From Kineothrix sp. IPX-CK (GTDB taxonomy: Bacteria; Bacillota; Clostridia; Lachnospirales; Lachnospiraceae): a stretch of DNA of 64,000 bases. Positions within the stretch are counted from its first letter, which is position 1. The number at the start of each line of letters is the position of its first letter. The position numbers and the translations under genes are program-made. Shown piece after piece: positions 2,180-47,866 of this stretch. The notes under the pieces are model-generated. The model was not told the DNA's origin. It searched no databases and saw only the letters and a list, made by a program, of their open reading frames with translations. The stretch covers positions 4,650,001-4,714,000 of the forward strand of contig NZ_CP146256.1 of the NCBI RefSeq assembly GCF_039134705.1, read 5' to 3'.

Positions 2180-2292
2180 CATTACTGTTCACTCCGTTCA
2201 CAGTAACCCAATAATAATTTTGAAAAGGGAAGGTTGCCAGAGTCCAATTCTTGTGGTAGAATAGTTCGGTAACAGTCCCTTTTCAATAATGT

Positions 2293-2366
2293 GTTTCCGT
2301 AGCTCAGTTGGATAGAGCGACCGCCTCCTAAGCGGTAGGTCGGGTGTTCAAGTCACCTCGGGAACG
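2293..2366 (+). tRNA. tRNA-Arg (anticodon CCU)
   Basis: Full cloverleaf without encoded CCA. Acceptor arms GTTTCCG (2293-2299) and CGGGAAC (2359-2365) pair over 7 bp with one G-T; anticodon stem ACCGC/GCGGT encloses CTCCTAA, giving CCU (reads AGG); the T arm is GGGTG-TTCAAGT-CACCT. Its 3' half (2325-2366) is repeated perfectly at 9180-9221, so this gene is the integration target of the island that follows. Confidence 0.95.
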
Positions 2367-2369
2367 TTG
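2325..2369 (+). repeat. Left 45-bp direct repeat (attL-like) inside tRNA-Arg
   Basis: The 45 bases from the anticodon loop to just past the discriminator base (starting CTCCTAAGCGG, ending GGGAACGTTG) are identical to 9180-9224. The repeat covers the anticodon loop, variable region, T arm and 3' acceptor strand. This is the classical att core of elements that integrate into a tRNA 3' end and restore it on insertion. Confidence 0.9.
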
Positions 2370-2370
2370 G

Positions 2371-2412
2371 GAAGTATTGAAAACACTGGATTTTTCAATA
2401 CTTCTCTTTTTT
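2371..2412 (+). terminator. Terminator after tRNA-Arg
   Basis: GAAGTATTGAAAA pairs with TTTTTCAATACTTC and is followed by CTCTTTTTT. It lies just inside the left repeat, so the island supplies the terminator now used by the tRNA. Confidence 0.8.
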
Positions 2413-2566
2413 GTCCCCAAATTCTGTAATATGTGAATATCTATTTTTTAAAAATAAAAATTATTTAATAGAATAGGTATTCTAATACCGGATTTTCAAA
2501 AGTATTATGACTAAATGATGGAGCGTAGCTATAAAATTTTTTGGCTGGAATACAAATAGAGATTCT

Positions 2567-2803
2567 TTAGGGGCATAATTCCCATTCACCAATCCATTTT
2601 TGGTTAGTATAGTCGTATAGACGTCGGTATAATCGCCCATCTTCATTTTTATATCTCCATCCAATATTAGCAGCTCTTGTCTGAAATTCAGTATTAATAC
2701 GATTTACAACTAAAGATTCAGAGGCAAAAATTGGAACAGTCCATAAATTCATAAATGTAACTGAACATAGGATAATCAATATAATAATAAATTTTTTTTT
2801 CAT
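2567..2803 (-). CDS. Small exported protein, third gene of the blaI-M56 operon
   Basis: 78 residues. A typical signal peptide (MKKK, then about 18 hydrophobic residues, probable cleavage after IFA-SES near residue 28) leaves a mature chain of about 50 residues with paired aromatic/basic motifs (IGWRYKNEDGRLYRRLYDY, then WIGEW) and a C-terminal Cys-Pro. An AAAAAGGAGAAAG site precedes the ATG. Similar short exported proteins with an RYK..LYKRLYDY..W.G.W pattern occur in Lachnospiraceae, from memory; their function is not known to me. It lies 54 bases downstream of the M56 gene on the same strand, so it is probably co-transcribed with the repressor and sensor protease. It might be a ligand, a modulator or a substrate of the protease; nothing in the sequence decides among these. 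Confidence 0.7.
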   Translation of the reverse strand: MKKKFIIILIILCSVTFMNLWTVPIFASESLVVNRINTEFQTRAANIGWRYKNEDGRLYRRLYDYTNQKWIGEWELCP

Positions 2804-2857
2804 TTACTTTCTCCTTTTTAAAGAATCAAAGTTCATTTATAAATTATGTTTTCTGTC

Positions 2858-3994
2858 TTATTCATTATATATTATTAGGTTTTCATCAAAAATTTCTGTT
2901 ACTGTGCCAACATATTCCTGCTCAACATACACATCATAGGTTCCATCATCATTCTGAATGAGATACGAATTCGTTTCATTAATTTCATATGTTCCTTCCG
3001 CATGCTCATCTGTTATGGCATATGGTTCAAATATGATGAAGTTGGGCATAAGAAAAATAATCAATACTAAAACCAATCCTATAAGCATATATTTGATAGT
3101 ACGCTTATTTTTTATTTCACTACCCTTGGCGTATTCAAATATAGCTTCTATCCGATTTGCTATGTCATCTTCACAATCACTATTGAATGCAGCAACCCAA
3201 TGCATTCTATGTATATCTGACTGCAACCTGGCAATTCTAATCAAACATTCAAGATACTCCATTTTTTGAAATTCTTCCAGCTTATTAATCACTACTGAGT
3301 CGACACGGAGTTCCTGAATTTTTATCAACTGATTACGTAGCAAATAAACGAATGGATTCCACCAATAAATTGCTTGTAATAATTCACATATGAACCTGAT
3401 CCATAAGTCTTTGAAATAATAGTGTGCCATTTCATGACTCAGTATATAATACCATTCATCTACTGACAATTCTATTTCTGGTAATATAATGATAGGATTA
3501 AGCAGCCCAAATATGAAAGGTGACTTTACCTGGCTACTACTTACCACATTAAAACAAACCTGTTTTTTATATTTAGAGTTTATTTTATCGACAACTCGGT
3601 TCACAGCAGATTTATTTATTATTTTAAAGTTATTAACAGTGTGTTTTAGCGCAATATAAGATAATATCAGTTTTAAAACGAATATTATGCTTCCTATGAT
3701 TGATATTATAATCATAATTGATAGTAATGACCATTCCATCTCAGCGAAGGCGAATACAGGTTTTACAAAAGTAATATAGATATCTGGCCAGAATTTTGTA
3801 ATGTTGATATTATTCTGAGAAGGTAATTCAAAAGGCAAAAATAGTCGAAACATTATCATTACTATAATAAACAACACAATCTGGATTCCAATTTTTAATA
3901 CAATCTCACTTTTGGTTATAATATAATTGAGAGATAATGTTGCAATCCCACTGAAAAATACAATATTCAACACTGTTGATAAAGTAATTATCAT
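2858..3994 (-). CDS. M56 family (BlaR1/MecR1-type) membrane metallopeptidase
   Basis: Integral membrane zinc protease of 378 residues. Hydrophobic segments lie near residues 5-25, 32-52 and 92-115, then a cytoplasmic M56 domain with the zinc motif HEMAH (187-191) and a downstream ELRVD (about 228-232), and a further membrane segment near 288-310. In BlaR1 this protease inactivates the BlaI repressor after an extracellular signal. Here the C-terminal exterior part is only about 65 residues and has no penicillin-binding domain (no SxxK or KTG), so the signal is not beta-lactam binding by a PBP-type sensor. The tail contains a short TY(E/D)V..EYVGTVTEI beta-rich stretch. The gene follows blaI by 22 bases, with AAAGGGGAA as ribosome site, and precedes the exported peptide gene. 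Identity of the protease is firm; what it senses is unknown. Confidence 0.9.
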   Translation of the reverse strand: MIITLSTVLNIVFFSGIATLSLNYIITKSEIVLKIGIQIVLFIIVMIMFRLFLPFELPSQNNINITKFWPDIYITFVKPVFAFAEMEWSLLSIMIIISIIGSIIFVLKLILSYIALKHTVNNFKIINKSAVNRVVDKINSKYKKQVCFNVVSSSQVKSPFIFGLLNPIIILPEIELSVDEWYYILSHEMAHYYFKDLWIRFICELLQAIYWWNPFVYLLRNQLIKIQELRVDSVVINKLEEFQKMEYLECLIRIARLQSDIHRMHWVAAFNSDCEDDIANRIEAIFEYAKGSEIKNKRTIKYMLIGLVLVLIIFLMPNFIIFEPYAITDEHAEGTYEINETNSYLIQNDDGTYDVYVEQEYVGTVTEIFDENLIIYNE

Positions 3995-4016
3995 AAATTC
4001 CCCTTTATTTCTCTAT

Positions 4017-4442
4017 TTAGTCCTCAAAGGTTTGGTGCTCTGAGTCTTCCATTTTAAGTATCTGCTTTTTTCGTTCCTTAATCATTTCTTCCAATCTGTC
4101 GAGTTCACTTAAAGTGTCTTCGCTATTATCTGTTGGTAATAATGATGCCAATAGATGAGATGTAGCAATACTCTTGTTAATTAAGGACCCGGTTAATTCT
4201 TGCAGGGCCTCCGACTCTATGCTTTCTGAGCTGACTAACGGCTTAAATTTACGTCCCAGTGTCTTATTACTATAGGCATATCCATCCACAGCAACCATGC
4301 CCTTCTTTAGCAAAGATTGCATTACCCTCTGTACACTGTATACAGTCCCCCCCTCTCTATTAACAACCTCTGATACCATAAGAGCTTTTTCTGACTCCCA
4401 CAATATACGCATAACATCAATTTCACGTTTGGTCAATTTCAT
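4017..4442 (-). CDS. BlaI/MecI/CopY-family transcriptional repressor
   Basis: 141 residues, usual for BlaI. The winged helix-turn-helix spans about residues 1-80 (MKLTKREIDVMRILWE, then the recognition region TVYSVQRVMQSLLKKGMV), followed by a Leu-rich dimerisation region (about 80-140). Family members repress operons as dimers and are cleaved or released when a cognate M56 protease is activated; the protease is encoded immediately downstream. The ribosome site is AAGGAGCAC. It has its own leftward promoter (4484-4513) and faces a rightward promoter with a large palindrome (4582-4606), so it probably represses both directions. The acidic C-terminal tail (after about residue 105) is slightly longer than in classical BlaI. 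Confidence 0.92.
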   Translation of the reverse strand: MKLTKREIDVMRILWESEKALMVSEVVNREGGTVYSVQRVMQSLLKKGMVAVDGYAYSNKTLGRKFKPLVSSESIESEALQELTGSLINKSIATSHLLASLLPTDNSEDTLSELDRLEEMIKERKKQILKMEDSEHQTFED

Positions 4443-4483
4443 ACAATGTGCTCCTTCTTGCGGATATTTTAAAGACTAAGATT

Positions 4484-4513
4484 ATTATAACAACTTAAGA
4501 TTGTCAGCGTCAA
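4484..4513 (-). promoter_or_regulatory. Leftward promoter of the blaI-M56-peptide operon
   Basis: Read on the minus strand: -35 TTGACG (complement of 4508-4513), 18-base spacer, -10 TATAAT (complement of 4484-4489). The spacer holds an imperfect palindrome TAACAA-N7-TTGTCA (4488-4506), a possible autoregulatory repressor site resembling the half-site of the main operator. Confidence 0.65.
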
Positions 4514-4548
4514 CAAGAGTTGCCGATTTTTTCAAAAAACGACTTGAT

Positions 4549-4619
4549 TTTACATAACAATTCTGCTATGGTATAATCATCTTAATTGACAACGGTTGCC
4601 AATTAAGGCAAACATTGCC
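4549..4619 (+). promoter_or_regulatory. Rightward promoter with strong palindromic operator (probable BlaI target)
   Basis: A consensus-like sigma-A promoter, TTTACA (4549-4554), 17 bases, TATAAT (4572-4577), is followed by a 25-bp palindrome at 4582-4606: left arm TTAATTGACAAC, central G, right arm GTTGCCAATTAA, matching at 11 of 12 positions. A second inverted repeat GGCAA-N3-TTGCC follows at 4607-4619. The palindrome covers the expected transcription start, an ideal place for repression. The adjacent BlaI-family gene makes it the likely regulator; that assignment is inference. The transcript would have a leader of about 370 bases before the SH3-like gene. Confidence 0.72.
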
Positions 4620-4815
4620 AATATTGGAAATAAAACGTAAGCCAGGGTTATTGGGGGACACAGATTGGATTGATTTATAATTTGTAAAAATATTTTAGCC
4701 AAAAGAAAGAAGCAAAAGGAGAATTTTACAAGCAGAATTAGTCCCTTAGAAATGAAATTCTACGAAAGCTGGTAAAGTTTCTTTTCTGATTTATCTGAGT
4801 GAGGGGGGTGAGAAT

Positions 4816-4857
4816 ATGATAATTAGAAAAATAACTATTTATTTTAGAGATGATTAG
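4816..4857 (+). CDS. Possible 13-residue micro-ORF in the leader
   Basis: A very strong ribosome site (GAGGGGGGTGAG) ends 4 bases before ATG 4816; the frame encodes MIIRKITIYFRDD and stops at 4857. It lies in the long leader between the BlaI-type promoter and the SH3-like gene. It could be a leader peptide, a short peptide product or chance. Apart from this and the promoter, the 4620-4959 stretch shows nothing recognisable. Confidence 0.35.
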   Translation: MIIRKITIYFRDD

Positions 4858-4959
4858 TTTTTTTAATGGAAGTAAGATGGGAGAAAAAATCAAAGATTGG
4901 TCAAAGGCTTTCAGTTTTTTAACAGATCTTATATTAAATCAAAAAAAGGGGGAAGAACT

Positions 4960-5262
4960 ATGATTAAACATTTTAAGAACAAAACTTTAGCTGGTGCATT
5001 TGCACTTATTATGGGAGCAATAATTTTAATTGCACCATTAACAACTTATGCTGCAAACTTTAACCAGTATGCCACGGTTGGTGGAGATGGTGTCCGATTA
5101 AGAAAAACCCCAAGTTTCAATGGGACCATATTGGAATTAATGTACAAAGGCGAGGGCATATGGATTGACTCTGAGTATAGCGATAATTATTGGGTTCATG
5201 TAAAGAGAGTGAAGACTAATACAATAGGTTATATGGGCTATGATTTATATGACCATCAATGA
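4960..5262 (+). CDS. Small exported SH3-like protein
   Basis: 100 residues. The start is ATG 4960, preceded by AAAAAGGGGGAAG; an upstream in-frame extension to 4897 lacks a ribosome site and would bury the signal peptide. Signal peptide: MIKHFKNKT, then a hydrophobic core (AGAFALIMGAIILIAPL) and probable cleavage after TYA (about residue 28). The mature part (about 70 residues) resembles a bacterial SH3 domain (GDGVRLRKTPSFNGTILELM, then WVHVKRVKT..IGYMGYDLY). Such domains usually bind peptidoglycan or cell-surface ligands. It is the first full gene behind the BlaI-type operator. A copy of its C-terminal third follows directly (5268-5351). Domain call by pattern; ligand unknown. Confidence 0.8.
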   Translation: MIKHFKNKTLAGAFALIMGAIILIAPLTTYAANFNQYATVGGDGVRLRKTPSFNGTILELMYKGEGIWIDSEYSDNYWVHVKRVKTNTIGYMGYDLYDHQ

Positions 5263-5267
5263 CCATG

Positions 5268-5351
5268 GTTGATAATACTTGTATCCACGTAAAAAGAGAT
5301 AAGAGTCAAACAATAGGTTATATGGACTACGCCTATTATGTACATAGTTGA
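5268..5351 (+). pseudogene. Truncated tandem copy of the SH3-like C-terminus
   Basis: The frame reads DNTCIHVKRDKSQTIGYMDY and continues AYYVHS before a stop. This parallels the end of the preceding protein (SDNYWVHVKRVKTNTIGYMG, then YDLYDHQ). It has no start, signal peptide or N-terminal half, so it is the remnant of a tandem duplication, diverged at roughly a third of positions. Confidence 0.75.
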
Positions 5352-5474
5352 TTCTAATCATTTTGAAGGAAAGGGTGTCTCGAATTATCATCTTTTGAGA
5401 TACCCTATGCCTCTATTATTTAAAATTAAATGTACTGAGATTGTGTGTTTTATTTAGTTGGATGGGGTCAAAAG

Positions 5475-6569
5475 ATGAGTAGACAACGGTTTATTTTGAA
5501 AAGAAAAGCATTCATTACATTGCTCATTGGCATATTCATTTTATCTGGCTGCGGGCAAAGTGAAAACAGTAAGATTGATAGTGATAATTTATTTACAGAA
5601 ACAGAAGGAAGGATGAAAGATGATGAAAATAATGAACCATCCGAAGATTTGCCAAAGCCGCTTGAGGTTCCTGTAAATACCAAAATAGAAGATATTCATT
5701 ATTACAGTGAGGATTATATTGATCTGTTGGCATCTCCGCCTCTCTGTAAATCCGATGGGAAGAATATATATTTGGTTGACAAGCAGGATTTTTATATCAT
5801 GCCGGTTGGTACAGATGAGCTTAGCCCGGCGAATATTGACATCCCGGAAGGAATGGATGTTTACAATCTTGCTTTTGACAGCTATGGGAGAATTCATTTA
5901 CTCATTGCGGACCGTGATAACGAGGAATATTTTATCTGGCGGCTTGATGAAAGCTATCAGGTTGACAAAACAATTGACATTTCCGCATATGTTGAAGAAA
6001 AACAAGTGCCGCTTTGGTTTCTGATTCATAAAGACGGTACCTATTATATCCAGTGGCCTCTAAATCGGAATGGAATAATTGTTGACAGTGAAGGTGTGCT
6101 TAAGCATAAATTTACGTTGGAATCACTTGGAATTAGGTGGACAAGGGAAGCCGCAGTCGGAAAAGACGGCCAGATTTATCTCGTTTACGGCGATCGGGAT
6201 GAGAAATGGGAAATTGGTAAGTTAGATGTGAAAAACTGCCTAATAAAAAATGAAAATTCGTCCCTTTATTTTCCGGGCAGTGAGATTTTTATGGCGATGT
6301 CCGGCGGTACAGATACGAATCTTTTGCTATTGAGCCCATACAGTGGAGTTTGGGCTTGCGATACGGAAAGTGGAATCATGGAAAACCGTGTGCCACTATC
6401 TGATCTTCGTTTGGGTTTCGATACGGAATCGGAATTCTGGCTCCGCATATTTTTGCCCGATGGCCGGCTGCTTTTGCTGGGACAAACAGTAAATGATAAT
6501 AATGCAGATAATGTTGATGGCGAGAGTTCTAAGCATCTGCTTTTTAAGTATATTCCTGTGGGTAAATAA
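5475..6569 (+). CDS. Exported propeller-like lipoprotein (first of two paralogues)
   Basis: 364 residues from ATG 5475; the upstream in-frame extension would precede the signal peptide without a ribosome site. Lipoprotein signal MSRQRFILKRKAFITLLIG followed by IFILSGC, with lipid attachment at Cys26, then a low-complexity acidic linker. The rest is beta-rich with repeated short units of the type 'xxKDGxxY' (HKDGTYYI, GKDGQIYLVYG), suggesting a beta-propeller-like fold. The unit GKDGQIYLVY has a counterpart ATGKDGQVYALF in the next gene, so the two are diverged paralogues. Together with the solute-binding protein at 7587 they match the domain order of the single 722-residue protein at 45698-47866. 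It would sit on the outer face of the membrane. No enzyme motif was seen. Confidence 0.8.
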   Translation: MSRQRFILKRKAFITLLIGIFILSGCGQSENSKIDSDNLFTETEGRMKDDENNEPSEDLPKPLEVPVNTKIEDIHYYSEDYIDLLASPPLCKSDGKNIYLVDKQDFYIMPVGTDELSPANIDIPEGMDVYNLAFDSYGRIHLLIADRDNEEYFIWRLDESYQVDKTIDISAYVEEKQVPLWFLIHKDGTYYIQWPLNRNGIIVDSEGVLKHKFTLESLGIRWTREAAVGKDGQIYLVYGDRDEKWEIGKLDVKNCLIKNENSSLYFPGSEIFMAMSGGTDTNLLLLSPYSGVWACDTESGIMENRVPLSDLRLGFDTESEFWLRIFLPDGRLLLLGQTVNDNNADNVDGESSKHLLFKYIPVGK

Positions 6570-6593
6570 GGATATTATGAAAGTAGAGAAAAT

Positions 6594-7544
6594 ATGAAGA
6601 AATTTAGGAAAAAGGCTATCATAATTGTGCTTTTAATGCTAACCTTTGCAGTAGGTACTATATTTTTCCTACAAACACATGACCATCCGGCAATGCCTGT
6701 AGCGGCTTGCGGTAGTATAGATGAGATTTTTATTATTGGTAATACATTTGATGACCAGTCTGGGGATTTGTTAGCAAGCGGGATTTATATCTTAGATAAG
6801 GATAGATATAAAATGTCATTATATAATAATATGACATTAATAGATTCCATGAGTTTTGAAAAAATTGCCTTGGACAAAGATAATAACTTATTTTCAATTG
6901 TGCGAAAACAAGACGAAAACGCAATATATGAGATATGGAAAATCAATAATGGGATTGTATTAAATAAATATGACATTACAAATTCTATAGATGAGAAAAA
7001 CAACGGAGGAATCCGGGCGTTTACTATTGATGGAAATGGGAATTTTTTCATTAGAGAGATTTCTTCGGATGAGGTAATAGTCATAGATAAAAGTGGATTT
7101 GAAACATCCAGGTTAAAGGATGTAGCGAGTGATATTTCATTTGAAAGCATGGCAACCGGAAAAGACGGACAAGTGTATGCACTATTTTGTAAAAATATCG
7201 ATGCTGGGAGTGGATTTAAAATCATTTCATTTGCTGATGGATTAATCAATGAAATATGTAATGGAAATATTTTGCCAACTGAAGAGATTTATAGTGTCAT
7301 GGGAACATGCACAAAATATGATTTGGTAATGAAGGGAATATATGGTGTTTATGGATATAATTTTAATTCGGAAGCTGCTGAGAATATAATATATTTTCCT
7401 CCATTCGAAGCTGAATTTACTAAGAGCTTTTTTGTAGAAGATGAACTGTACATTTTTTTTACTGATATAGATGATGATAAAAGGCACAAAATAAAATCTA
7501 TAGAATTGAAAACGATAGATTTAGTAACAGGTGTTTTCCAGTAG
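6594..7544 (+). CDS. Exported propeller-like protein (second paralogue)
   Basis: 316 residues. It has a basic N-terminus (MKKFRKKA) and one hydrophobic segment (about 8-26), followed by HDHPAMPVAACG. There is no standard lipobox directly after the hydrophobic core, so it is probably anchored by the N-terminal helix; lipidation at the Cys near residue 38 is less likely. The exterior part has repeats such as DGNGNFFI and GKDGQVYALF that parallel the upstream lipoprotein. It starts 24 bases after that gene and is in the same transcription unit. Codon usage is very AT-rich. The function is unknown; the context suggests an accessory subunit to the solute-binding lipoprotein that follows. Confidence 0.75.
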   Translation: MKKFRKKAIIIVLLMLTFAVGTIFFLQTHDHPAMPVAACGSIDEIFIIGNTFDDQSGDLLASGIYILDKDRYKMSLYNNMTLIDSMSFEKIALDKDNNLFSIVRKQDENAIYEIWKINNGIVLNKYDITNSIDEKNNGGIRAFTIDGNGNFFIREISSDEVIVIDKSGFETSRLKDVASDISFESMATGKDGQVYALFCKNIDAGSGFKIISFADGLINEICNGNILPTEEIYSVMGTCTKYDLVMKGIYGVYGYNFNSEAAENIIYFPPFEAEFTKSFFVEDELYIFFTDIDDDKRHKIKSIELKTIDLVTGVFQ

Positions 7545-7586
7545 AATTATCGTACATATAATAATGATAGAATGAGGAATATTGGG

Positions 7587-8903
7587 ATGAAAAAGCATAT
7601 CTTATGGATTTTACTAATATTGTGTTTTTCATTTACGGGATGTAATGCGAAGTCATCTGCGGTGACAGAAACAAAAACCTTGACGCTGGCGGTCTTTGAA
7701 AGTGAATCGCAGTTATCAAGGTCAAAGCTATTTCAATGGGTGAATTTGTATAATGAGAATAATTCTGATGTAAAAATTGAAATTGTAAATTATTTAGATA
7801 ATTACTCGGACTCGTTTGAAGCCTTTAATCAAATCAAAGTCGAAATTAGTGCCGGAAAAGGCCCTGACATGATTAATTTTGGCGGGCAATATTCACCGCT
7901 TGATGCTTCATCCGGAATGATGGCTGATTTATACCCTTTAATGCAAAATGATGAGTCGTTTGATAAGCAAGATTTTTACTATAATATTCTTGAATCTTTT
8001 GAGGTAGGTGATAGCCTTTATGTGCTTGTACCCACCTATAGAATAGACTCATATGCTACGGCTAACAATGAACTTTTAGGTTTAGAAAGAATGGATATTA
8101 AGCAATTAGCAGATGCTTACAATATGCTGGATGATGAAAGTATTCTTTTTCCGGGAGAAACTAAAAAAGCTGTTTTCGGAATGATCTGCTATGGGAGTCT
8201 GGAAAACTACGTTGATTGGGGTGAAGGCATATGCCATTTTAATAGTGACAGTTTTAAAGAAATCTTAAATTTTGCTAATCAATTTCCGCTAAGTCTAAAC
8301 ATGGCGAATGATTACTCGGCGAAGGCATTTTTTACAGAAGGCCGTGCTCTTTTGTATCCGGTTTCCATTGACAATGTTTATGGAACAACCAGAATAAGAA
8401 CGCTTTATGGGGAAACGCCGACTTATATTGGTTATCCGCTTGATTCAGGCAATGGGAACATGGCGGCGATTGTTGATATCTCAATCGGTATCAGTTCAAC
8501 CAGTAAAAATAAAGAGGAAGCATGGGGGTTTTTAAGAAGCTTGCTTGACGGTGAATTCCAAGATAACACCGAAAGCGGATTACCGCTTCGAATCAGTTCA
8601 TTGGAACAAAAGTTAGAGGATGCAAAGAGGGCAGAATTTGATTCAAATGGCGAAAAGGTAGTAAAAGAGCGGCTTATTTTTGATAGTGAAGATTCTGTTA
8701 ATATCTATGAAATAACTAATGAAGATGCAGAAACACTTAAAGCAATTATTAGTAAAATTGAGTTTAGTATGACGGTTGATTCTAACCTATATAGCATCAT
8801 GCTGGAAGAGGCAGATTACTTGTTTAATGATGATCGGAATGTAGATAATGTCGCAGATATTATTCAAAATCGAGCAAGTATATATATAAATGAGAAGAAA
8901 TAG
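7587..8903 (+). CDS. Extracellular solute-binding lipoprotein (ABC type 1-like) without its own permease
   Basis: 438 residues from ATG 7587, which has GAGG 8 bases upstream; an in-frame ATG at 7572 is less well placed. Lipoprotein signal MKKHILWILLILCFSFTGC (Cys19). The mature chain follows the family 1 solute-binding pattern: TLTLAVFESESQLSRSKLFQ at the N-terminus, an AGKGPDMINFG motif near residue 95, and a C-terminal NVADIIQNRASIYIN segment. The last matches TDIIENRVNIYLNE at the end of the fused 722-residue protein. No permease or ATPase genes are nearby, so it probably acts as a surface receptor, not as part of an importer; that is inference. It is the last gene of the BlaI-controlled rightward unit, closed by the hairpin at 9004-9043. 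Confidence 0.85.
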   Translation: MKKHILWILLILCFSFTGCNAKSSAVTETKTLTLAVFESESQLSRSKLFQWVNLYNENNSDVKIEIVNYLDNYSDSFEAFNQIKVEISAGKGPDMINFGGQYSPLDASSGMMADLYPLMQNDESFDKQDFYYNILESFEVGDSLYVLVPTYRIDSYATANNELLGLERMDIKQLADAYNMLDDESILFPGETKKAVFGMICYGSLENYVDWGEGICHFNSDSFKEILNFANQFPLSLNMANDYSAKAFFTEGRALLYPVSIDNVYGTTRIRTLYGETPTYIGYPLDSGNGNMAAIVDISIGISSTSKNKEEAWGFLRSLLDGEFQDNTESGLPLRISSLEQKLEDAKRAEFDSNGEKVVKERLIFDSEDSVNIYEITNEDAETLKAIISKIEFSMTVDSNLYSIMLEEADYLFNDDRNVDNVADIIQNRASIYINEKK

Positions 8904-8907
8904 ATTC

Positions 8908-8988
8908 GAGATTGTCCTTGGCGGTCGGGCTGCTTTGGAGAAACTTCATGCCTTTGAAATACGGACTGTTGGGGATTTGATATCTTGA
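8908..8988 (+). pseudogene. Possible DinB/UmuC (Y-family polymerase) fragment
   Basis: The frame contains GRAALEKLHAFEIRTVGDLI before a stop. This resembles the helix-hairpin-helix of Y-family DNA polymerases (typical form GxxTAEKLHxLGIRTVGDLA). No other part of the gene remains. It lies near the right end of the island and may mark a junction with another element. Confidence 0.45.
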
Positions 8989-9003
8989 TTATATATGTTT
9001 TTT

Positions 9004-9043
9004 AAAAAGTGGATTTAGAACTTACTCTAAATGCACTTTTTTT
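9004..9043 (+). terminator. Terminator of the rightward island operon
   Basis: AAAAAGTG and ATTTAGA pair, around a loop ACTTAC, with TCTAAAT and CACTTTTTTT; a T-run ends the hairpin. It lies 100 bases after the solute-binding gene. Confidence 0.7.
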
Positions 9044-9179
9044 GATGACGGAATTTTTAGAATTTTCACTTTTTTGCATTGGTTTCACACCCCCTTGACA
9101 GACAAAGAGAAAAGAGGGTTATTTAATAAGCAATAGACAAAATGCTGATAACAAATGATGATGTAACCCTCCATAGGAA

Positions 9180-9224
9180 CTCCTAAGCGGTAGGTCGGGT
9201 GTTCAAGTCACCTCGGGAACGTTG
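9180..9224 (+). repeat. Right 45-bp direct repeat (attR-like), orphan tRNA 3' half
   Basis: Identical to 2325-2369. The 5' half of the tRNA is missing (upstream sequence is ATGTAACCCTCCATAGGAA), so this copy cannot make a tRNA. It is the displaced original 3' end of tRNA-Arg. Confidence 0.9.
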
Positions 9225-45128: not shown

Positions 45129-45689
45129 ATGAAAAAAATGAAACAAGGCAGGAAAACGCGATATACGCAAATGGTTTTGCAAGACAGTCTGGTGGAGCTT
45201 ATGAAGCAGAAGCCCATCGCGAAAATAACGATTAAGGAGTTGTGTGAAAATGCGGATATTAACCGCACTACTTTTTATGCGCATTATACCGACCAGTACG
45301 ATCTGCTCCAAAAGATGGAGGAAGAATGTCTTTCCTATGCAAGAGAGGCTATCTCCAACCTTATCGGGGAAAAGGACCAGGATGTGATGATGAAGCTTTT
45401 AGAGGAGATATTTCAGTATTTTATCGACAACAGAAATCATATTCAGGTGCTCATGAGCGAACAGGGAGATATCAATTTTCAAAAGCAGCTTTTTGCAATG
45501 ATTTATGAGTTTTGCGGCATAGCTCCGGACTCCGGCAAAAATGCCGGTATGGGAACGAAAGAGTTCTATTTTGTCTTCGTTGTGTCCGGGAGCGTGGGCC
45601 TGATTCAGCATTGGCTGAAGGACGATGCCATGAAGTCGGCCAGGGAAATGGCCGAAATCATATACAATGTGGCGGGCTTAGTCAGATAG
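45129..45689 (+). CDS. TetR/AcrR-family regulator divergent from the ABC exporter
   Basis: 186 residues. HTH (about 8-55): RYTQMVLQDSLVELMKQKPI, then AKITIKELCENADINRTTFY-type recognition helix. The C-terminal domain resembles the TetR_C_8-like group (FVVSGSVGLIQHWLKDD). Location suggests it represses the ABC exporter. Bases 45383-45689 are repeated, with a short internal deletion and only a few substitutions, at 49095-49362. The gene ends eight bases before the convergent fused lipoprotein gene. Confidence 0.93.
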   Translation: MKKMKQGRKTRYTQMVLQDSLVELMKQKPIAKITIKELCENADINRTTFYAHYTDQYDLLQKMEEECLSYAREAISNLIGEKDQDVMMKLLEEIFQYFIDNRNHIQVLMSEQGDINFQKQLFAMIYEFCGIAPDSGKNAGMGTKEFYFVFVVSGSVGLIQHWLKDDAMKSAREMAEIIYNVAGLVR

Positions 45690-45697
45690 CGGGCGGA

Positions 45698-47866
45698 TTA
45701 TTCATTTAAATAGATATTTACCCTATTCTCTATAATATCGGTTACTTCGTTTACCGTTTTCTGTCCGGTAAAATAAGCTGGTACTTCATCCATAACTATG
45801 CTTACTAAGGGAGAAACATTCCGTCTGATGATTACAGAGCCATCGATAAGCGCTCTAATGATTTTAATATCCTCTTCTCTTGCCGCATATATTTCAACTA
45901 CCCTATTTTCCATATCATCAAAATAGGATATTACCGGAACCTCCCTCTCATTTCCTTCACCGTCCAAATAAGTATCAATTTTCATAGAGGCTTCCAATTG
46001 TCTGTTCAATATTTTATTGCAGGTTGAGAACTTCCAGCTTGGGGTTATGGTTCCTTGCAGTTCATCCGTAAAATGACTTTCTATAAATTCCCAAGCCTTT
46101 TCTTTATAACTGCTTTTGGCATTGATAGCAAAGCAATTATCTGGTATGATTACCGCTCCGTTACCCGCCGCCCCCGGATAGCCGGCGAATATAGTATCAT
46201 CGCCCCATACATAGCTACTATATAAGTATTCTTTAACATCGGAAAACGAATTTGGTTCAAATAACATTTGCCCTTGTCTGCGAACAGAAGTATCGCTAGT
46301 ATAGAAGACCTCTGAGGGCATGCGGCCCGCAAGCTCAATATATTGCTGAAGTCTTGCTTTATCTAAGCGGAGATTCTCCTTGGACGTACCAATATCCATA
46401 CCATAGGAAATGCAAAGCTGAAGCATCATCTCCTTGCTTATAGGCGTTTTCTCAAGCAGATAAGGATTGTTGTCCAAAATATTCATGATATCATCGGTAG
46501 ACCATACCCTTTTGTCTGCCACCCATTTTTCTTTCGTTACTAATGTATCGATAGTAAAGTTTGTCGGCAGCATATATAATTGACCATTATTTAAAAGCGA
46601 TTCGTAAACAGAGTTTACCATATCTTCCTTATGAAGCACATCGCTTTTCTCCATATAGGGAACCAAATTATCCAGCACTCCTTTGGATCCTAGCACCCAA
46701 TCGTCGATGTAGAGCGAATCCAGCAATAGAATATCCGGCCCCTTTCCCGCGATTAAGTCATAATAAAGATTATTTACCGATGTATCATTATCCTGTTCCC
46801 AGTAATCGACTATGGTGATTCTATATTCGGGGTTACTATTATTGAACTGCACCACGGCATTGCGTGTCTCTGCTTTCTCATGGAAGCATCCGAGCAGAAG
46901 CTCTGTCTTTTGTTTTATCGACTCTTCCGATTGCCATGAAATATTCCGAATGCTTTCCTCTTGAAGAACGAGGCAATTAAGACGATTGTCCGCATCATAA
47001 TATATCTTGCCTATCTTATCTCCAACTATTCCATAATCCGACCATTGCAACATAACCCTGATGTTACCCGTAGAGACAGAATAGGAAAACAACTGGGAAT
47101 CTGTGCGGTATAATATATCACCATTAGAATTTGAAATAAAGTCAAAATAAACATCCTGAAGAATTCCAGGGATACTTCTCATTTCTTTTGTCTGTACATC
47201 CCAAATGCCTATCTCGCTTTGTCCGTTTATAAACTGCTGTACAATGGCAGAACCATCCTCAAGAAAGCAGACATCGTAAAACGATTCATCCGCCCACCTT
47301 TTTTCGTCCAATACTTCCCCGTCAAGATTCATAAAGCAGTAAGCGAATTTAGAGTATATCAATATATTGTCATCTTCATTTGCAGTTATCTTCCATTCAT
47401 AGCAATCATCTTCATCACCGCCATGAAATTCATTCATCCACTTAATTGTTTTTTCGGTACCATCTAAATTAATTTTTTTGACATAGATATTTTCATTATT
47501 ACCGTCAACCTCCAGTATCAGAAAAAAAGCAACTTCCTTTGATGATAGCGCAAAATCCAATACATCGACCGTTTCTAAATCGAAAGAACAAAATGAGGAT
47601 GGCACGTTATTACTGTCCGTCTTTAAAAAATAAAAATTCTCCCGATTTTTATCCATTGTAGAATATAATATGTTTCCATTATTCGCATCTATTCTACTAT
47701 AGTATTCATTACCCGCAATAGAAATATTTTTACTATCAATGCTTATCAGTTCGGAAGAGCCCTTCCTTTCTGCAACATCCTTATTTATTTCTTTATTGCC
47801 GCATGATACGAACAGCGGCAATATGAGAACCATTATAAAAACAACAAGACTTTTTTTATATTTCAT
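45698..47866 (-). CDS. Fused propeller-like/solute-binding lipoprotein
   Basis: 722 residues. Lipoprotein signal MKYKKSLVVFIMVLILPLFV-SC (Cys22). Residues 45-315 are beta-rich and propeller-like (NGNILYST, DGSAIVQQF, SNGDILYRTDSQLF). From about residue 322 there is an extracellular solute-binding domain (TELLLGCFHEKAETRNAVVQ, AGKGPDILLLDSLY, and ending TDIIENRVNIYLNE). The same parts occur as separate genes in the island: propeller-like proteins at 5475 and 6594 and the binding protein at 7587. No permease or ATPase is adjacent, so a receptor role is as likely as transport. GGGGAGAATGT precedes the ATG. Probably one transcript with the 3D-domain gene upstream (gap 74 bases). Confidence 0.85.
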   Translation of the reverse strand: MKYKKSLVVFIMVLILPLFVSCGNKEINKDVAERKGSSELISIDSKNISIAGNEYYSRIDANNGNILYSTMDKNRENFYFLKTDSNNVPSSFCSFDLETVDVLDFALSSKEVAFFLILEVDGNNENIYVKKINLDGTEKTIKWMNEFHGGDEDDCYEWKITANEDDNILIYSKFAYCFMNLDGEVLDEKRWADESFYDVCFLEDGSAIVQQFINGQSEIGIWDVQTKEMRSIPGILQDVYFDFISNSNGDILYRTDSQLFSYSVSTGNIRVMLQWSDYGIVGDKIGKIYYDADNRLNCLVLQEESIRNISWQSEESIKQKTELLLGCFHEKAETRNAVVQFNNSNPEYRITIVDYWEQDNDTSVNNLYYDLIAGKGPDILLLDSLYIDDWVLGSKGVLDNLVPYMEKSDVLHKEDMVNSVYESLLNNGQLYMLPTNFTIDTLVTKEKWVADKRVWSTDDIMNILDNNPYLLEKTPISKEMMLQLCISYGMDIGTSKENLRLDKARLQQYIELAGRMPSEVFYTSDTSVRRQGQMLFEPNSFSDVKEYLYSSYVWGDDTIFAGYPGAAGNGAVIIPDNCFAINAKSSYKEKAWEFIESHFTDELQGTITPSWKFSTCNKILNRQLEASMKIDTYLDGEGNEREVPVISYFDDMENRVVEIYAAREEDIKIIRALIDGSVIIRRNVSPLVSIVMDEVPAYFTGQKTVNEVTDIIENRVNIYLNE

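Follow-up and report, generated by a model that had tools for sequence, protein, structure and literature searches.

What does a BlaI repressor paired with an M56 membrane protease read when its locus carries neither a beta-lactam sensor nor a resistance gene? This question is raised by positions 2567 to 8903 of a 64,000-nucleotide stretch of the Kineothrix sp. IPX-CK chromosome (NZ_CP146256.1, positions 4,650,001 to 4,714,000), which is called the window here. Seven open genes lie in two divergent groups, three leftward and four rightward, on a low-GC island of 6,855 bp that is bordered on one side by a tRNA-Arg(CCT) gene and on the other by an exact 45-bp copy of the 3' end of this gene. In the reading that we favor, with middling confidence, the small island carries a self-contained proteolytic sensor of the BlaR1/BlaI kind whose sensor parts are dissociated and which would induce its own surface proteins. 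The M56 protein is most likely a BlaR1-like receptor. Its sensor parts are most likely the small exported peptide encoded beside it and, probably, the solute-binding protein (SBP) and propeller lipoproteins, and its signal is probably something other than penicillin. The genes are as follows.

2567..2803, minus strand: small exported peptide of 78 residues, with a signal sequence (by eye) and the C-terminal motif WRYKNEDGRLYRRLYDYTNQKWIGEWEL
2858..3994, minus strand: M56 metalloprotease of 378 residues with a short C-terminal tail (Pfam PF05569 Peptidase_M56, E 4.6e-28)
4017..4442, minus strand: BlaI-family repressor of 141 residues (Pfam PF03965 Penicillinase_R, E 1.3e-8)
4960..5262, plus strand: exported SH3-like protein of 100 residues (SH3_3 at 21.2 bits, a weak match below the cut-off of 27)
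5475..6569, plus strand: propeller lipoprotein 1, called from its fold (lipobox LSGC by eye)
6594..7544, plus strand: propeller-like exported protein 2 (a profile match to the propeller 1 family is the sole basis)
7572..8903, plus strand: solute-binding lipoprotein of the SBP_bac_1/8 type (PF01547 SBP_bac_1, E 1.1e-10)

The in-frame ATG at 4960 was chosen as the start of the SH3-like gene, for which the list of open reading frames (ORFs) gives 4897; the same list starts propeller 1 at 5445. All the parts named in the initial annotation were present, the SH3 call being the weak one. The proteolytic BlaI/M56 switch that it described as divergent from a rightward promoter agreed with the Pfam families and the gene order.

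BlaR1 and MecR1 are the textbook proteolytic sensors, known for beta-lactams, and the bla and mec systems place a palindromic operator on a divergent promoter. Like BlaR1-BlaI and MecR1-MecI, the window has a BlaI/MecI-family repressor encoded beside an M56 protease, a palindromic candidate operator on the target promoter, and intact HExxH and ExxxD zinc motifs (H187, E188, H191, E228, and D232 were invariant in a 21-row alignment). Unlike them, the M56 protein had no penicillin-binding sensor domain, since the NCBIfam model blaR1_generic scored 115 bits against a cut-off of 400 and matched only positions 102-367 of 585. No beta-lactamase or transpeptidase was found among the seven island proteins scanned. 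The earlier statements that the M56 protein lacks a beta-lactam-sensing domain and that this is not a known resistance system were thus borne out. In the window, separate proteins probably fill the sensor role, namely the exported peptide together with the SBP and propeller lipoproteins. We do not file the system as a member of the BlaR1/MecR1 class; it would work like one. In one account, BlaR1 is described as an M56 gluzincin with HExxH and ExxxD, in which the protease is followed by a C-terminal extracellular part (PMC9834060).

The following control elements were predicted between the two gene groups.

4484..4513, minus strand: leftward blaI promoter TTGACG-18-TATAAT (11 of 12 consensus positions; a consensus match only)
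4509..4524, no strand: candidate weaker operator GTCAAC-4-GTTGCC, read from the sequence, overlapping the -35 box of the leftward promoter
4549..4577, plus strand: rightward promoter TTTACA-17-TATAAT with TG before the -10 box (11 of 12 consensus positions)
4582..4606, no strand: predicted main operator, the 25-bp palindrome TTAATTGACAACGGTTGCCAATTAA
4607..4619, no strand: second operator-like site GGCAAACATTGCC, 13 bp, 19 bp downstream from center to center

A 25-bp operator over the rightward start site had been proposed, and the sequence argues for it. The palindrome, in which 11 of 12 arm pairs match (22 of 25 positions symmetric), was the best of its length in the island, with p=0.006 for the 517-bp intergenic stretch (5000 first-order shuffles), and it sits at the start site expected from TTTACA-17-TATAAT. 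Its core TTGNCAANNNTTGNCAA had a single occurrence in the whole 4.72-Mb genome, where the reversed control had 0. The pattern GNCAANNNTTGNC had two matches in 64 kb, both in this promoter; the count alone is not unusual (1.0 expected; at least 2 in 24 of 100 shuffles), but the adjacency within one promoter is. The candidate site at 4509-4524 has the half-sites of the main operator with a different spacing. For Clostridium thermocellum BlaI_0696 and BlaI_1845, one study reports two inverted-repeat pairs per promoter with half-sites GTCTAT/GACTAT, which its authors read as a beta-lactam response (PMC8457756). The window resembles those operons in being a small clostridial BlaI regulon with two inverted-repeat pairs and unknown operon proteins, and differs in its half-sites, GTTGNC. 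An operator conserved across BlaI loci was also considered and was dropped because the best palindromes at the other BlaI genes inspected differ.

The small exported peptide had been left as an orphan, but it belongs to a recurring family encoded next to M56 genes. Its members share a design of a signal sequence followed by the C-terminal motif W.YK..NG.LYRRLY..T...W..DW. We surveyed 23 M56 ORFs, namely the window's and those of 21 loci drawn from a listing of 50 places. A peptide gene of this design lay directly downstream of 15. In one locus (L122) the motif was fused to the M56 C terminus, in another (L107) a propeller-SBP gene stood in place of the peptide, and the remaining six ORFs had none of these (the first copy in L115, and L118, L119, L123, L124, and L126). 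A BlaI-family ORF was present in 20 of 20 loci (L112-L131).

Starting from the peptide gave the same picture. A peptide-only profile had 49 matches in 42 of 397 genomes of the family; in four genomes (G029, G236, G397, and G448) the sole match fell within a longer ORF, had a weak E value of 3e-6 to 9e-4, and is probably spurious. An M56 gene was upstream in 28 of the 30 loci returned, two of them (L153 and L157) with the gene split between ORFs, and the other 2 loci were cut by contig ends. Seventeen of the 49 matches fell outside this neighbor check, of which L113 and L122 were covered by the M56 survey. Across the class (a sample of 391 genomes), 16 matches were obtained in 12 genomes. Eight were strong (E <= 3e-10) and came from five genomes of the same taxonomic order, one of which belongs to another family; the eight weak ones (E >= 2.7e-5), a fragment and otherwise long proteins unrelated to the peptide, had no M56 gene in their neighborhood. 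M56 was present in all six further strong class-wide loci. When the 14 seed loci were excluded, M56 lay upstream on the same strand in 20 of 20 testable strong loci, within 110 nucleotides in 19 and at 587 nucleotides in L160. With all loci included, 33 of 34 distances were within 110 nucleotides and 29 of 34 within 60 nucleotides or overlapping. BlaI, M56, and the exported peptide form a recurring trio in the Lachnospiraceae.

The window's peptide matched no Pfam or NCBIfam model, and no PDB chain matched it better than E 0.12. Six peptides from the protein database (P0001-P0006) were 62-100% identical to it, of which P0005 is the window's own sequence begun at a later start. A WW-like fold was considered because of a weak PDB profile match to the WW prototype 1e0m (E 0.28), but when 17 members were compared with Pfam, none matched WW at E <= 1, and the fold is kept as a lead only. 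One trio locus (L129, 1653-5025) adjoins a C39 peptidase exporter (Pfam); a neighboring ORF, with no Pfam match, shows a possible double-glycine leader by eye.

The rightward lipoproteins were linked to M56 by a different route. The model of propeller 1 was a beta-propeller (predicted local distance difference test score 80.8; 25-row alignment). In Foldseek, the top PDB structures for it were propellers, among them YCF48 and Drp35, with E values down to 1.1e-8 but modest superposition (template-modeling scores of 0.3-0.65), and its relatives in L033-L037 were 48-60% identical. Relatives of the SBP were 76-79% identical in three congeners, and the family search reached 29 of 145 genomes at E <= 1e-10. 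The distant relatives (22-33% identical) were mostly the C-terminal part of proteins of roughly 710-920 residues, the N-terminal part of which is a propeller by profile. Since most distant SBP relatives are fused behind a propeller, propeller 1 and the SBP represent the split halves of a propeller-SBP lipoprotein architecture, carried in the window by two separate genes with no permease-like gene. Tandem propeller-SBP lipoproteins are common (for example, L040 and L042), and an SH3-like gene accompanies propeller genes in L033 and L039. As noted before, the window's SBP has no transporter; no transporter part was found among the seven scanned proteins. Unlike the binding proteins of ATP-binding cassette (ABC) importers, it is not encoded with permease and ATPase genes, and the Opp genes from 9416 on lie outside the right repeat with a binding protein of their own.

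For comparison, 68 loci were scanned, comprising the window, every cluster of the SBP search, and L033/L034; L215 was included on account of its M56 gene. An SBP-family gene was found by profile in 67 of them (none in L038). In L107, genes for BlaI, M56, and a 752-residue propeller-SBP lipoprotein follow in a row with a 4-nucleotide overlap, as one operon. In L209, BlaI is followed by a single 1152-residue M56-propeller-SBP protein (P0007). The same build was found in P0009, P0010, and the shorter P0008 (940 residues, with a short N terminus), whereas P0121 joins M56 to an SBP_bac_1 domain; these come from the best 120 of 429 database hits, in which P0008, P0009, and P0010 were 82, 56, and 43% identical to the L209 protein. 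The window holds the same three domain families, with BlaI upstream in L209, but as separate genes rather than one polypeptide. In the L209 model, confidence was good for the propeller and the SBP but poor for the membrane region. Its best PDB matches were oligosaccharide-binding proteins, the first being CbpC of C. thermocellum (E 4.8e-15, SBP half). Because such fusions exist, the SBP and propellers probably belong to the sensor and are not merely outputs.

The propeller-SBP family has members at two further sites of note. At 45698-47866 (minus strand), the window itself encodes a 722-residue lipoprotein that unites propeller and SBP and belongs to the family of the split pair; the only TAA in its gene is its own stop codon. 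Between it and genes resembling an ABC ATPase and a 1300-residue permease lies a convergent regulator-like gene (45129-45689, plus strand; names by eye). In L043 (2872-12663), three tandem propeller-SBP lipoproteins directly follow genes resembling a radical-SAM peptide-maturation cluster, and on their far side lie two genes that by eye resemble a protease and an ABC exporter (the first names are by eye as well).

These observations suggest the following mechanism. BlaR1 carries its sensor domain behind the protease, so by analogy the third gene after BlaI-M56, or a domain fused there, would be the sensor: the peptide in most loci, the propeller-SBP protein in some, and in the window possibly both. 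The M56 protein would act as the membrane protease, its short tail completed outside the cell by the exported peptide, presumably through contact. The SBP and propeller lipoproteins, the kinds of which are elsewhere fused to M56 or encoded right after it, would serve as ligand-binding co-receptors. With no ligand, BlaI dimers would occupy both operators at the rightward start site, and probably the leftward promoter too, and their repression would keep the two operons low. Ligand bound outside would activate M56, BlaI would be cut, and the SH3/propeller/SBP operon would be induced together with the sensor itself. A positive loop would result, with more receptor on the surface. Judging from the SBP fold, an oligosaccharide or envelope-derived glycan would be the first guess for the ligand class.

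The island that carries these genes is bounded as follows. The extent given earlier (2567..8903) had the right gene content but missed the tRNA gene and the repeats.

2292..2367, plus strand: tRNA-Arg (anticodon CCT), integration site (ARAGORN)
2325..2369, plus strand: left 45-bp repeat, attL-like, equal to the tRNA 3' end (exact copy at 9180-9224)
9180..9224, plus strand: right 45-bp repeat, attR-like (exact repeat of 2325-2369)

The two repeats bracket the whole seven-gene set. The exact 45-bp pair had a mean of 0 in 100 shuffles, and the remaining two matches in the genome were only 81% identical. The GC content was 30-37% in 11 of the 12 one-kb segments wholly inside the island (40.6% in the twelfth) and 39.5-46.8% in those wholly outside. 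In a genus sample, the tRNA-Arg site had a match in 11 of 16 genomes. Genome G015 carries a 464-residue tyrosine integrase beside the same tRNA, with repeats 49.7 kb apart (loci L099-L101); G003 has an integrase ORF of the same length and start there, and G001 has a 461-residue integrase-like ORF. The Pfam check covered the G015 protein. Genome G004 has neither repeat nor integrase at this tRNA, and the gene after its tRNA resembles one located past the right repeat in G015. Since integrase-bearing elements occupy the same tRNA in relatives, the site is an integration hotspot.

The island thus shows what is expected of a tRNA-targeted one, namely a direct repeat of the 3' end at both borders, with integrase-bearing elements or an unoccupied site in relatives; what it lacks is its own integrase, which is usual for islands but not required. 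None of the 11 integrase-domain places in the genome falls inside the island (2370-9224), and the genome's best similarity to the G015 integrase was just 28%; therefore, the island is either immobile or mobilized in trans. Plasmid relatives were limited to a single record, which shares only 42 bp of tRNA end with the island's right repeat, no phage relatives were found, and viral contigs held no SBP or M56 relatives by single-protein patterns, which reach close relatives only. In L106 and L104 (genomes G001 and G002), a second copy of the 5' part of tRNA-Arg (1-51) immediately precedes a diverged copy of the gene (89% over 9-81), which looks as though most of the gene had been exchanged for that of an arriving element.

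Two further features of the rightward group are needed to weigh the favored reading.

5271..5345, plus strand: decayed partial duplicate of the 3' end of the SH3-like gene (a 73% repeat of 5182-5256)
5372..5406, plus strand: strong RNA hairpin between the SH3-like and propeller 1 genes (z -3.39 for 5350-5440; 0 of 200 shuffles as stable)

Several findings weigh against a self-inducing receptor with dissociated sensor parts. An M56 gene was present in just 4 of the 68 loci (the window, L107, L209, and L215); with about 285 M56 genes summed over 145 genomes, each taken as about 3 Mb, chance alone would give roughly half a co-location in this amount of sequence, and therefore this count alone proves little. 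The form of the link in L107 and L209 says more. The neighborhood search suggested earlier found the combination of BlaI, M56, SH3, propeller, and SBP in the window only among these 68 loci, so the set is not conserved. The split propeller-1/SBP pair occurs in L033-L037 without BlaI/M56 (the L033 SBP being cut short), so it is mostly found apart from them, and permease-like genes stand instead in several propeller-SBP clusters (L040, L041, L042, L044, and L045; by eye). In the window, the SBP operon is divergent from M56 and not joined to it, and the sugar-binding fold was modeled on the L209 protein, not on the window's SBP. Among the other BlaI genes inspected, none showed the window's operator in its upstream region, where the best palindromes are unlike it. 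The M56 tail, which looks like the peptide motif by eye, was discarded as its homologue (hhalign probability 0.2); 49 of 100 column shuffles scored equally high, so there was no profile similarity. The 5372-5406 hairpin may reduce expression of the distal genes, or it may uncouple propeller and SBP expression from the BlaI promoter. Finally, the right flank of the window had no match in 15 congeners; hence, no empty site joining both flanks was seen.

The main rival keeps M56 and the peptide as the sensor and makes the SBP and propellers outputs only. The signal read by M56 and the peptide would be an antimicrobial peptide or envelope stress, and the SH3, propeller, and SBP proteins would be induced at the surface to bind the insult or shield against it. 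Apart from the window, the 15 loci with the trio showed neither an SBP nor a propeller gene in the vicinity, and the peptide and M56 may suffice. In addition, an ABC_tran, FtsX/MacB, or C39 exporter match lay near BlaI-M56 in 8 of the 20 loci L112-L131 (L118, L119, L121, L122, L124, L125, L128, and L129; hand-picked by look, with 10 proteins run and two without a match), and peptide-export or efflux genes of this kind fit an envelope-stress role. However, ABC genes are common anyway, and 8 of 20 may be no more than their frequency beside random genes; moreover, the M56-propeller-SBP fusions and the L107 operon place the propeller-SBP family in the sensor position. We regard this explanation as possible but rather unlikely. 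The earlier view of the exported receptor-like proteins as the controlled set is retained insofar as the operator is on their promoter, but they are probably sensor parts too. Of the two roles first offered, surface sensing or defense, sensing is favored, and none of the seven proteins matched a PADLOC anti-phage model at E <= 0.01.

Alternatively, the island could be decaying, and the two modules that it unites, the BlaI-M56-peptide sensor and the propeller-SBP set, could be unrelated in function. The missing integrase, the decayed SH3 duplicate, and the restriction of the exact set to the window would fit, as would the propeller-1/SBP pair that congeners carry at other chromosomal sites with no BlaI/M56. 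On the other hand, none of the seven reading frames is interrupted, the genome has no further operator core like the one at the rightward start site, beside which a second copy lies at a distance of 19 bp, and the same families are linked elsewhere by fusions and one operon, which makes this explanation distinctly improbable. A classical bla/mec-type module for beta-lactam or wall-antibiotic resistance would account for the BlaI and M56 families but not for the missing penicillin-binding sensor domain, beta-lactamase, and transpeptidase, and it can be given very little credence.

The bond between the peptide and M56, and the M56-propeller-SBP proteins, are the surprising parts. PF05569 was found in 93 of 145 genomes of the window's relatives, and we know of no established signal for most of these M56 genes. 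The link of a peptide family to M56, together with the propeller-SBP outer half of some M56 proteins, offers handles on what such receptors read, and suggests that receptors of this kind evolve by swapping extracellular modules. More tentatively, and at somewhat less than even confidence, a BlaR1-like receptor class may sense non-antibiotic ligands through borrowed parts, namely an obligate exported peptide that would complete the M56 ectodomain and sugar-binding-type SBP/propeller modules serving as sensor domains; the window would hold a dissociated, horizontally moved form whose receptor induces its own ligand-binding subunits. No description of an M56-associated exported peptide or an M56-SBP receptor was found in the open-licence literature, which is weak evidence of novelty.

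Two minor features lie past the SBP gene. The stretch at 8904-8990 looks like a remnant, and its 28-residue translation resembles a piece of a Y-family polymerase by eye; this candidate matched 0 Pfam families and was dropped. The second feature follows it.

9004..9041, plus strand: terminator-like hairpin after the SBP gene

This hairpin, which is not among the sites of the consensus scan, had a z of -3.87 for 8975-9060.

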